From contig JALWDJ010000033.1 of assembly GCA_027014605.1 (NCBI GenBank), positions 2,022 to 40,932 of the forward strand: a stretch of 38,911 nucleotides of DNA. Reading direction: 5' to 3'. The DNA comes from Campylobacteraceae bacterium. Lineage in GTDB: Bacteria > Campylobacterota > Campylobacteria > Campylobacterales > Sulfurovaceae. Within the stretch, counting starts at the first letter, position 1, and each line of letters begins with the position of its first letter. The translations under genes were made by a program, and so were the position numbers. Shown here piece by piece: positions 3,205-38,911 of this stretch. The notes under the pieces were generated by a model, which worked only from the letters and a program-made list of their open reading frames with translations, searched no databases and was not told where the DNA came from.

Positions 3205-3762
3205 ATGAGTATAGAAGATAAAAAAAGATGGGATAGAAAATATCGAGAGAAGATAATCCCAACTAAAACTATTGAGGTTGTAGAAAATTATGCCAAATTA
3301 GCTAAAGGAAAAATAGCTTTAGATATTGCTTGTGGAATGGGTAGAAATAGCAGACTTTTAGCTAAAATGGGATTTATGGTTGAGGCTATTGATATTAGTC
3401 CATTAGCCTTAAACTCTCTAAAGGGAATAGAGAATATAAAAACTAAAGAGGTAGATTTAGATACATATAAACTAAAAGAGGACTTCTATGATTTAATAGT
3501 CTGTACCTACTTTTTAGAGCGTTCTCTATTTCCACAGATATATAAAGCACTAAAAAGAGATGGAATATTTATATTTGAAACCTTCAAAGAGCATAGTAAA
3601 AGTACTAAAGTTCCATCAAATAAAGACTTTTTACTAAAAGAGGGAGAGTTAAAAGAGATTTTCTCTAAAGATTATGAGATAATTCATTTAAGTGAAAGAT
3701 GGGGAAGAGACCACTTTAATAATAAGGTTCTAAGTGAATCTATTGTAGTAAGAAAAATATAA
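3205..3762 (+). CDS. Class I SAM-dependent methyltransferase
   Basis: A 185-residue single-domain methyltransferase. Motif I is ALDIACGMGRNSRLLA (about 38-53), followed by the acidic ribose-binding end of strand 2 (VEAIDIS) and the strand-4 segment YDLIVCTYFL. The size and motifs resemble the TehB/UbiE-like small-molecule methyltransferases, but nothing visible identifies the substrate. The ATG follows the lipoprotein stop after only two bases and has no Shine-Dalgarno of its own outside the upstream gene, which suggests translational coupling. It ends 8 nt from the convergent gene at 3771. Confidence 0.8.
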   Translation: MSIEDKKRWDRKYREKIIPTKTIEVVENYAKLAKGKIALDIACGMGRNSRLLAKMGFMVEAIDISPLALNSLKGIENIKTKEVDLDTYKLKEDFYDLIVCTYFLERSLFPQIYKALKRDGIFIFETFKEHSKSTKVPSNKDFLLKEGELKEIFSKDYEIIHLSERWGRDHFNNKVLSESIVVRKI

Positions 3763-36168: not shown

Positions 36169-37965
36169 ATGGGACTTAAATCAGATAGCTGGATAAGAGA
36201 GAAATCTCTTAAAGAGGGTATGATAACCCCTTTTTGTGAAGACTTAGTAGGAGAGGGAGTTGTCTCTTATGGACTTAGCTCATATGGGTATGATATTCGT
36301 GTAAGTGATGAATTTAAAATTTTTACAAATATCAATGCAGAGGTAGTTGACCCAAAAGATTTTAATAATAATAATGTAGTTGATTTTAAAGGTGATGTCT
36401 GTATAGTTCCTCCAAACTCATTTGCTTTAGCTAGAACAGTTGAGTATTTTAAGATACCAAAAGATACATTAGCAATATGTTTGGGAAAATGTTTAACAGG
36501 TGATAGTAGAGTTTTAAATGGAGATGATGGCTCATATCTTCCGATTAGAGAGTTTAATAGTGTAAAATCTACTATCGTCTTTGATAATTTTCAGACAACA
36601 AGAGCTAAAATATTAAATTTTATACCAAATGGAATTAAAAAGGTATATAGGCTTAAGACTAAAGCAGGATTGGAGATAAAAGCGACCTCAAATCACCCCT
36701 TTTTGCAGGTTGATGGGTGGAGAGAGTTAAAAGATTTAAAAGAGGGAGATAGAATTGCAGTTGCAAGAGCTATACCTTTTTTTGGTAAAGAGGATTTACC
36801 AGCTTGGGAAGCATCACTTTTAGGATTGATGATTTCAGAGGGGCAGTGTGATACAGAAGGTCACAGTCCTACCTTTACAACAGAAGATGAAGTTTTAGCA
36901 GAGTTACTTATAAAGAGTGTAAAAGAGGGGTTAGGTTGTGAAGTAACAAAAAAAGAACCTTATGGTTATAGAATTGTTAATAGAAAAAAAAGAGGTGGTA
37001 CTATGAGTAGAAATAGAGCCACTCTATGGTTAAAAGAGTATAAGCTTAATGTAAAATCGGAAAAGAAATTTGTTCCACAATCTATTTTTAGAGCAAAAAA
37101 AGAGAGTGTTATTCTATTTCTACAAACACTCTATTCAGGTGATGGCTCTATCTATAAATCAAAAGATGGTAAAGGTTTTTTTTTGGAGTACTACTCAAAC
37201 TCCAAGAGATTAATTGATGATATACACCATCTACTACTTAGATTTGGAATATTTGCTTTAATTAGAGAGAAGATTACACATATAGGAACAACTGCCTACA
37301 CTTTACAGATTACAGATAAAGATTTAATCCATAAATTCTATAGAGAGATAGGTTTCTATCCAAACTCTATAAAACAGAAAAGATTAGAGGAGATAATATC
37401 TCAAATTCCAAAAAGAAAAAAGAGCAACTTTGATACACTACCCAATGAAGCTTGGTCTATAGCAAAAGAGGCTATGAGTAGAAGAGGAGTTAGTTTTAAT
37501 AGTCTAAGAATAGAAACAAATTCAAAAAAATCTCTCTCATTAAAAGATGCTAGATTGATTGTAGAGAATACAGAAGATAAAAATTTAAACTCTCTACTAC
37601 AATCAGACTCACCTATTTGGGATACTATAAAAAGTATAGAGTATATAGGGGAAGATGAGGTTTTTGATTTGGAAGTTCCAAACTATCATAACTTTATAGC
37701 AAATGATATTGTAGTTCACAACTCCACCTATGCAAGATGTGGCATTATTGTAAATGTGACTCCATTTGAGCCAGAGTTTGAGGGGCATATTACAATAGAG
37801 ATTTCAAATACAACTCCACTACCTGCTAAGATATATGCAAATGAGGGGATAGCACAGGTTCTATTTTTTCAAGGTGATGAGCAGTGTGAGGTAACCTATG
37901 GAGATAGAAAAGGTAAATATCAAAAACAGAGAGGCATTACTCTACCAAAGATTTTAAAATCTTAG
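36169..37965 (+). CDS. dcd: dCTP deaminase precursor interrupted by an intein
   Basis: A 598-residue precursor made of two dCTP deaminase parts around a 411-residue intein. The N-extein is residues 1-107 and the C-extein 519-598, giving a 187-residue mature enzyme, close to the 193 of E. coli Dcd. The mature enzyme deaminates dCTP to dUTP on the route to dTTP. The junction reads LGK / S-TYARCG, so the extein Ser corresponds to the catalytic Ser111 of E. coli; Arg112 and Glu133 (mature numbering) match Arg115 and Glu138. The N-terminal core ([18 protein letters not shown]) and C-terminal end ([11 protein letters not shown]) are normal. No frameshift or stop interrupts the frame. The enzyme cannot work unless spliced. 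It is the last gene of the yajC-secD-secF operon. Confidence 0.95.
36490..37722 (+). mobile_element. Intein with LAGLIDADG homing endonuclease, in dcd
   Basis: A 411-residue in-frame insertion encoding an intein. Block A starts with the nucleophile Cys ([14 protein letters not shown]). Block B has the TxxH-type motif in [16 protein letters not shown]. Two LAGLIDADG-type helices follow: [10 protein letters not shown] (block C) and [11 protein letters not shown] (block E), each with its acidic residue (Glu, Asp). Block F is [19 protein letters not shown] and block G is IVVHN, with penultimate His and terminal Asn, then extein Ser as the +1 nucleophile. All residues for class 1 splicing and for a two-motif endonuclease are present, so it is probably active in splicing and possibly in homing. 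The insertion falls exactly at a conserved catalytic motif, as is usual for inteins. Confidence 0.95.
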
Positions 37966-38112
37966 AGTATTCCATTTTAAGAAATTAAATAAGCCAAGTT
38001 GATATATTATTTGGCATTAGTTTACAAACTTTTTCTCAACGCTCTATAAAATAGCACTGTTACGAGGTTTTAACGCATGAGATATTTTTGATATTTCCCA
38101 TAAAATAGGCTA
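37966..38112 (+). promoter_or_regulatory. Candidate CRISPR leader
   Basis: 147 nt of non-coding, AT-rich DNA between dcd and the first repeat. It holds a sigma-70-like promoter (TTTACA at 38021-38026, an 18-nt gap, TATAAA at 38045-38050) aimed at the array. The last part, ACGAGGTTTTAACGCATGAG and then TTTCCCATAAAATAGG, lies against the first repeat and resembles a leader tail by position. A weak GCCAA/TTGGC dyad at 37993-38015 might act in ending dcd. The leader role is inferred from position, orientation of the array and the promoter; no homologous array was compared. Confidence 0.5.
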
Positions 38113-38300
38113 TGACCCGACTGTATTTATACGATAGGGGATTGAAACGAAATATATTATTACCCAAAGTTTTTAAGGTTCTTAGTGTAATTTGACCCGA
38201 CTGCTTTGCGATAGGGGATTGAAACCTAGAAATTATATACTGTCCCTATTGTTATATTTTCAAATGACCCGACTGTAGAGATACGATAGGGGATTAAGAC
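38113..38300 (+). CRISPR. Short CRISPR-like array, three repeats with variable hairpin centres
   Basis: Three repeats at 38113-38148 (36 nt), 38193-38225 (33 nt) and 38265-38300 (36 nt), with two unrelated intervening sequences of 44 and 39 nt. All repeats share TGACCCGACTG at the left and CGATAGGGGATT at the right. The first two end in GAAAC, typical of many CRISPR repeats; the last ends in AAGAC, like a decayed terminal repeat. The centres differ: TATTTATA, CTTTG and TAGAGATA. Each still allows a small stem: GTA-TTTA-TAC, GC-TTT-GC and GTA-GAGA-TAC. Outer CCC and GGG can pair as well. Direction is left to right, from the candidate leader to the degenerate end. No cas gene lies in the window, so its type is unknown; spacer lengths would fit type III better than type I. 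Confidence 0.7.
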
Positions 38301-38308
38301 AGAAAGCA

Positions 38309-38357
38309 GATAACTGTTATCAGTTTGTAGCTACAAACAATAAGCAGTTGTTGTTTG
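38309..38357. repeat. Cluster of palindromes after the array
   Basis: Three overlapping dyads directly follow the last repeat: GATAAC-T-GTTATC at 38309-38321, a perfect 16-bp palindrome GTTTGTAGCTACAAAC at 38323-38338, and CAAACAA/TTGTTTG arms at 38334-38340 and 38351-38357. They could end the array transcript, bind a regulator, or form alternate RNA hairpins. Confidence 0.5.
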
Positions 38358-38410
38358 CTTAACTCATGATAGTGGATATAAAAATCTTAAAATAAATAAT
38401 TTCTCCTATT

Positions 38411-38466: not shown

Positions 38467-38911
38467 TTGACAGAGTTTATTGATTGGTTTTCAACCACCT
38501 ACCTAGAATATAAAGAAGAACTTTTAAATTGTCACCATAATTTTAATAATAGTGAAACAAATCCTTATCATGTGGAGGGTGACTGTTGGTCTCATATTAT
38601 GATGGTTTGTAAAGTAGTAGAGTTAAAAGGATATGACAAAATAGTACAAATATCTGCACTACTTCATGATATTGGTAAGCCACAATCAAGAAAGATAAAT
38701 CCCAAAAATAACCATATTCAATTTTTTGGACATGAGGAGATTTCTGCTATATTAGCTAAACCTATACTTAAAGAGCTAGTAGAGAATAAAAAAATAACTA
38801 ATGAGGAGTCCTTAGAGATAGAGGAGCTTATTTCATTACATGGAATACTCTATAAGATAACACATCAAGAGATTATAGAGAGATTTAAAGGTAGAGAGAA
38901 CTTTTTTAGAC
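38467..38911 (+). CDS. HD-domain phosphohydrolase-like protein (3' end cut by window)
   Basis: A reading frame of 148 codons that runs off the window edge, so the C-terminus is missing. Residues about 34-80 carry an HD-type metal site: H35 and H43 in NPYHVEGDCWSHIMMV, and H67-D68 in ALLHDIGKPQSR; a later candidate ligand is the His of FFGHEEISA. The H-x-EGD-x-W-x-H pattern is found in HD proteins next to or fused to nucleotidyltransferase or AAA/kinase domains, so a C-terminal partner domain may follow; this cannot be seen. The start is TTG, with AGGAG 6 nt upstream. It lies 166 nt after the CRISPR-like array in the same direction. No Cas10-type or other cas motif is seen in the visible part. 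Confidence 0.8.
   Translation, partial: MTEFIDWFSTTYLEYKEELLNCHHNFNNSETNPYHVEGDCWSHIMMVCKVVELKGYDKIVQISALLHDIGKPQSRKINPKNNHIQFFGHEEISAILAKPILKELVENKKITNEESLEIEELISLHGILYKITHQEIIERFKGRENFFR

Follow-up and report, generated by a model that had tools for sequence, protein, structure and literature searches.

The window, a stretch of 38,911 nt from a Campylobacteraceae contig, contains a short array of three direct repeats that is preceded by an A+T-rich leader and followed by an HD-domain protein gene. As the original prediction stated, and in agreement with both sequence and positions, the repeats have constant ends (flanks TGACCCGACTG and CGATAGGGGATT, exact in every copy) and variable centres, which read TATTTATA, CTTTG and TAGAGATA from the first copy to the third. 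The repeats begin further 5’ than was originally drawn, with A ahead of TGACCC in copies 1 and 3 and AATT ahead of it in copy 2. Counting these 5’ bases, which recur in pure arrays of relatives, all three repeats are exactly 37 nt long because their 5’ bases differ in this way. The third copy ends in ATTAAGAC rather than ATTGAAAC, a detail absent from the earlier description; an altered end is common in terminal CRISPR repeats. The window also carries, at 36169-37965, a dCTP deaminase gene with an intein and a LAGLIDADG domain (Pfam DCD, Intein_splicing, LAGLIDADG_3).

Table 1. The array and its surroundings in the window (G and C numbers are genomes and contigs of relatives).
Feature	Position	Strand	Basis or counterpart
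CRISPR leader, ~137 nt, ending ...TTTCCCATAAAATAGGCT	37975..38111	+	Comparison with leaders of relatives’ arrays
Repeat 1, type TATTTATA, 37 nt, ATGACCCGACTGTATTTATACGATAGGGGATTGAAAC	38112..38148	+	Same type in G006 C196, C292 and C294; CM score 63 bits
Spacer 1, 40 nt	38149..38188	+	
Repeat 2, type CTTTG, 37 nt, AATTTGACCCGACTGCTTTGCGATAGGGGATTGAAAC	38189..38225	+	Pure 4-copy array with the same AATT 5’ end, G011 C139 (L036)
Spacer 2, 38 nt	38226..38263	+	
Repeat 3 (terminal), type TAGAGATA, ending GATTAAGAC	38264..38300	+	21-copy pure array, G020 (L034)
Palindromic element copy (GTAGCTACAAACAATAAGCAGTTGTTGTTTGCTTAAC) in trailer	38327..38363	+	10 copies in 41 genomes
Possible relic, 3’ half of a fourth repeat (CATGATAGTGGAT, compare CGATAGGGGAT)	38365..38377	+	By eye
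HD-domain protein gene, running off the contig	38467..38910	+	Pfam HD; neighbours of homologues

The window locus is a real CRISPR array. Its 37-nt direct repeats lie within the 24-40 nt range and alternate with unique spacers of comparable length (40 and 38 nt), its A+T-rich leader beside the first repeat is common to several arrays, and cas genes are present in the genome (type III-A on contig C28 and a type I-B operon on C91). Near-identical repeats, found in the long homologous arrays, are replaced in the window by copies with three different centres. Identity of repeats within a CRISPR array is usual and not strictly defining; with all other array features present, the window array is an aberrant member of the class. 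Ahead of repeat 1 there is one weak promoter-like match, which is within chance expectation. No copy of spacer 1 was found elsewhere in 100 related genomes at ≤3 mismatches, and neither an exact 20-mer of either spacer nor the repeat pattern matched viral contigs.

A strict pattern search recovered the repeat family in 8 of 149 genomes of relatives. Since the family recurs in these eight other genomes and a reversed control pattern gave zero matches, it is not a product of chance. In a species-level genome collection, 14 contigs carry the family, and all of them come from Campylobacteraceae or Sulfurovaceae MAGs. Every long array keeps a single centre throughout, with unique spacers: pure arrays carry 21 copies of TAGAGATA (G020, L034), eight of TAGAAATA (G011 C168), five of CATTTTTG (G021 C188) and four of CTTTG (G011 C139, L036), and G026 has a run of four TAGAAATA repeats. 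The constant centre of the long arrays implies that normal first-repeat copying operates in the family. The original prediction had described the locus as not a plain CRISPR array, and had itself named homologous arrays with identical centres as contrary evidence; such pure arrays occur in the relatives, and that description is not supported. Because homologous arrays are constant in centre, the variation in the window is better attributed to the mixing of array lineages than to diversification in place.

Genes for Cas2 and a 747-761-aa RT-Cas1 fusion adjoin the arrays of G020, G021 and G011 C168. In G024, the best-assembled case with type III-D genes beside a family array, the order is cas6, cas10, III-D cas7/cas5, HD, csx20-like, csx1 (CARF-HEPN), WYL, cas2, RT-cas1 and array. 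Because long arrays adjoin cas2/RT-Cas1, with III-D genes in G024, the family consists of CRISPR repeats associated with type III systems using RT-Cas1. A family of structured repeats unrelated to CRISPR would agree with the mere three copies in the window and with its lack of any cas gene except for the terminal HD gene, which is linked to type III; it is almost certainly the wrong reading, given the relatives’ long arrays with unique spacers beside cas2/RT-cas1, their conserved leader and their ATTGAAAC 3’ end. Type III CRISPR arrays with RT-Cas1 fusion adaptation modules are already known (Silas et al. 2017, PMC5513706). Like those systems, the window has a repeat-spacer array with a leader, and its relatives have adjacent cas2 and RT-Cas1 as well as III-D effector genes (G024) with CARF/HEPN Csx1 and Csx20; unlike them, the window genome lacks RT-Cas1, and its array is short with three repeat types mixed.

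The window’s own genome (1.98 Mb in 97 contigs) carries the repeat at the window locus only. Although it is 99.99% complete, no RT-Cas1 was found in it; the sole match is a standalone Cas1b (27% identity) in what looks like a complete type I-B operon (contig C91), which comprises cas6, cas7/csh2, cas5, cas3, cas4, cas2, cas1 and, in the cas8 position, a gene for a 593-aa protein with no family match. A type III-A module (cas6, csm1/cas10, csm2, csm3, csm4) lies on contig C28. The genome has two Cas6 proteins and two effector modules without the integrase that adjoins family arrays elsewhere. The window array shares its repeat and leader family with RT-Cas1-linked arrays and lacks the linkage to RT-Cas1 and cas2 that is present in G011, G020, G021 and G024. 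Because RT-Cas1 is absent from its own genome, we do not claim the window array as a member of an RT-Cas1 system, and in such a genome it may be a relic without current function.

The HD gene of the window is a second copy, 96% identical in DNA, of the HD gene on contig C83 of the same genome, where the order is HD-csx20-csx1. Homologues precede csx20, csx1/CARF-HEPN and WYL genes in G024, G011 and G021, and csx20 on C83; by this neighbourhood, the window gene is a candidate type III CRISPR accessory gene. The protein of ~185 aa (window 38467-38910; L198, 8338-8889; L205, 11048-11602) is encoded before csx20 and csx1/WYL in several genomes. An ancestrally common array position with G007 C71, where an array also lies upstream of an HD gene, was considered, and orthology was not established: about 1.1 kb with other genes separates array and HD gene there, and no array precedes the HD gene at G000 C83 or G021 C139. 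At L038 (G007 C71, 780-2090), ORFs that by eye resemble a DarT/DarG-type toxin-antitoxin pair lie beside the HD gene and a solo family repeat.

Each centre of the window array recurs elsewhere as a type of its own. Type TATTTATA is the first repeat of all three G006 arrays, one of which has two copies of it, and outside the window it was observed only in these short arrays of one genome. Besides its pure array, type TAGAGATA is found as single copies directly behind the leader on contigs C71 and C8 of G007. The AATT 5’ end of the second window copy is also that of the pure CTTTG array. Because each centre recurs elsewhere as an array-specific type, the window array is probably a mosaic of three repeat types, brought together by recombination between array lineages; that the CTTTG copy retains the 5’ end of its lineage counts in favor of this reading. 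Recombination between CRISPR arrays is generally known.

Type switches occur in at least five arrays besides that of the window, within a small sample of about six mosaic arrays. At orthologous loci of two species, with different spacers (G011 C182 and G021 C100), TAGAAATA comes first and CATTTTTG last. The G006 C294 array starts with TATTTATA and ends with CATTTTTG, four TAGAAATA repeats precede a truncated terminal TGACCCGACTGCATTT in G026 C137, and TAGTAATA is followed by TAGAAATA in G022. The G024 array has 33 head-less 37-nt repeats and then three 35-nt repeats, the latter of a kind that adjoins standalone cas1 in G099, G106 and G108. For the window array, no donor arrays were found in its own genome as assembled. 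A metagenome assembly chimera, with the ends of three arrays misjoined at their common repeat ends, would suit a genome in 97 contigs and a contig that ends 611 nt past the array. We consider such a misassembly very unlikely, as the longest exact matches between copies (17, 15 and 12 nt) are shorter than usual assembly word lengths, and mosaics are present in other, independent assemblies, including the orthologous loci of two species.

The window leader shares 93, 90 and 88% identity with its counterparts in three G006 arrays whose first repeat is likewise of type TATTTATA, and 73-81% with leaders in G011, G020, G021 and G024. Among the 12 arrays with a readable leader, compared in between-genome pairs only, the last 60 nt of the leader show 94% identity where the first-repeat centre is the same vs. 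79% where the centres differ; none of 2000 label shuffles reached this difference, in a test with few arrays and a shuffle that ignores shared ancestry. The centre of the terminal repeat is not associated with the last 60 nt of the leader (81 vs. 83%; 1436 of 2000 shuffles), and the leader further upstream is associated with neither the first- nor the terminal-repeat type. These comparisons are strong support, though no proof, for joint inheritance of the proximal leader with the first repeat and for a different history at the far end of the array. The linkage fits replacement of the front of an array by array-array recombination. It could also be read, together with the RT-Cas1 genes adjoining several family arrays, as active diversification, in which the RT-Cas1 adaptation machinery rewrites the repeat centre and leader end during acquisition. 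This is highly improbable: runs of 21 (G020) and 33 (G024) repeats kept one centre, the same few types recur across species, and the window’s genome lacks RT-Cas1.

Replacement of leader and first repeat by array-array recombination is further supported by tandem leader-array-trailer units. In the mixed array on G021 C100, the leader matches that of C31b, a TAGAAATA array, at 93% identity, and the trailer behind the terminal CATTTTTG repeat shares 95% identity with the trailer of C188, a pure CATTTTTG array; just upstream lies the remnant of a second unit, consisting of a leader, AATTTGACCC (a CTTTG-type repeat start) and the same trailer. In G056, two arrays of different type are arranged in tandem. 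A lineage could thus be viewed as a unit of proximal leader and repeat type (hairpin centre and matching 5’ end), with the repeat 37 nt in total. New repeats would be copied from the first repeat, hence a lineage would normally be pure; when the leader and first repeat of a foreign unit replace the front of an array, e.g., through a deletion that joins tandem arrays at the short constant ends of their repeats, older repeats would remain at the far end. In the window, TAGAGATA would be the oldest type, followed by CTTTG and then by TATTTATA as the youngest. A Cas6 would cleave the transcript within the repeat, leaving an 8-nt ATTGAAAC handle, and the crRNAs may serve the type III-A (or I-B) effector whose genes lie elsewhere in this genome.

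All types are predicted by RNA folding to form one common hairpin, with a CCC/GGG stem and an inner stem; the folding z-scores of the window’s three types are modest (-1.1, -1.2 and -2.1). Covariation was tested over ten distinct repeat types. Two of the four inner-stem pairs show two-sided change (U-A/C-G, 5:5; G-C/A-U, 7:3), 98.6% of cells are paired, and the covariation score was reached by none of 500 shuffles, with slid structures performing worse; a narrower first set of types yielded one covarying pair only, the covariation stems from few independent events, and the outer stem is invariant. The claimed compensatory change with pairing kept is therefore real for the inner stem, with two pairs covarying on few independent events. 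The GAGA loop fits GNRA, as had been noted, and the TTTA and TTT loops do not.

In G024, where RT-Cas1 shares 86% identity with its G020 counterpart, the inner stem is deleted from the 33 repeats of the array. Because these repeats are without this stem, the inner hairpin is not essential and is dispensable in the family. Of the proposal of selection on RNA shape, the retention of pairing through compensatory pairs is supported, and the lack of an inner stem in this RT-Cas1 array speaks against a strong form of it. The other suggestion, that the centre is itself a variable element, is correct in part: the centre varies from one array type to another, and in three relatives’ arrays it contains inserted palindromic DNA. 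Drift in place under RNA-shape selection, with compensatory changes keeping the Cas6 hairpin, would account for the compensatory pairs across types and for their common predicted fold. However, exact recurrence of all three centres in other genomes, each as an array-specific type, is not expected from drift; the CTTTG copy moreover has the 5’ end of its own lineage, and a related array does without the inner stem. Shape is indeed conserved between lineages, but this leaves the mixture unexplained, and in-place drift as the cause of the mixture is unlikely and largely refuted.

Compensatory evolution of CRISPR repeat hairpins is known, and in I-C repeats the loop and upper stem are variable while the stem base and 3’ end are constant (CRISPRmap, PMC3783184). 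The family resembles these structured I-C repeats (PMC3783184) in its small hairpin kept by compensatory changes and in which parts vary or stay constant; it differs from the structured repeats of CRISPRmap in that a single array combines different variants and in that one related RT-Cas1 array has no upper stem. Natural variation here distinguishes the features that a CRISPR repeat has to retain (3’ half and CCC/GGG stem, along with total length) from exchangeable parts (hairpin head, 5’ end).

Total repeat length is kept while the centre varies. Repeats are 37 nt long in 10 of 10 type III-class arrays measured, with a GACCCGA-to-GGGG stretch of 4 to 16 nt, and 35-36 nt long in twelve arrays of another class, which in the cases checked adjoins standalone cas1. 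Arrays without known cas linkage were classed from their repeats and spacing, so the split into classes is in part circular; the 37-nt constancy still holds within the RT-Cas1-linked arrays alone (G011, G020, G021, G024). Compensation at the 5’ end would be expected if the length of the whole repeat is constrained. In types I-E, I-B and II-A, molecular rulers that measure a set distance from an internal motif determine where the second cut falls (Kim et al. 2019, PMC6895254). Repeat length is constant in those systems as it is here, there held by the integration step; an indel upstream of the ruler motif shifts their second cut equally, whereas in this family natural centre indels appear, from repeat comparison, to be offset at the 5’ end to a total of 37 nt. 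The 37-nt constancy despite centre indels offers a ready test of how the RT-Cas1 integrase measures repeat length.

We propose, tentatively and with some doubt, that repeat-type switching is a recurrent route of lineage change in the genus, in which proximal leader and first repeat would form one unit, the hairpin head would be an optional module, and head and 5’ end would change together with the repeat staying 37 nt. If true, arrays would carry a readable stratigraphy of switches, some of them, as in G024, between 37-nt repeats of the type III class and 35-nt repeats. The linkage of leader and first repeat suggests how another leader lineage could take over an array with old memories kept. 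A search of open-access full text found no description of three repeat types in register with fixed length, and nothing specific on mixed-repeat arrays or leader replacement in the literature searched, which is not proof of absence.

Solo or decayed family repeats are present at L105 (G031), L096 (G025) and L035 (G007), one of them shortly after a gene end and without a full leader. A relic of the cas1 3’ end lies upstream of the array leader at L083 (G021 C188, ~3536-3760) and in G025 C16 (9421-9504), which suggests that arrays were copied away from the RT-cas1 locus. Tails of ORFs that by eye resemble Rpn-type (PD-(D/E)XK transposase-like) genes abut the leaders of dispersed arrays just upstream (L031, L044 and L095).

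In three genomes, the palindromic element, with core GTAGCTACAAACAAYAAGCAGTTGTTGTTTGCTTAACGCTACTCATG, is inserted into the centres of distal CRISPR repeats; it also lies inside an apparent repeat of another array in G014 and, in the window, 3’ of the third repeat (38327-38363); sites include L032 (~305-420), L033 (~1406-1610), L037 (~438-530) and L146. The arrangement in the window, with the possible repeat relic (38365..38377) behind the element, recurs in L032 as element plus CATGATAGGGGATTGAAAC. Several of the 10 copies in 41 genomes lie inside or beside CRISPR repeats, and the element is possibly a small mobile element that targets the hairpins of these repeats.
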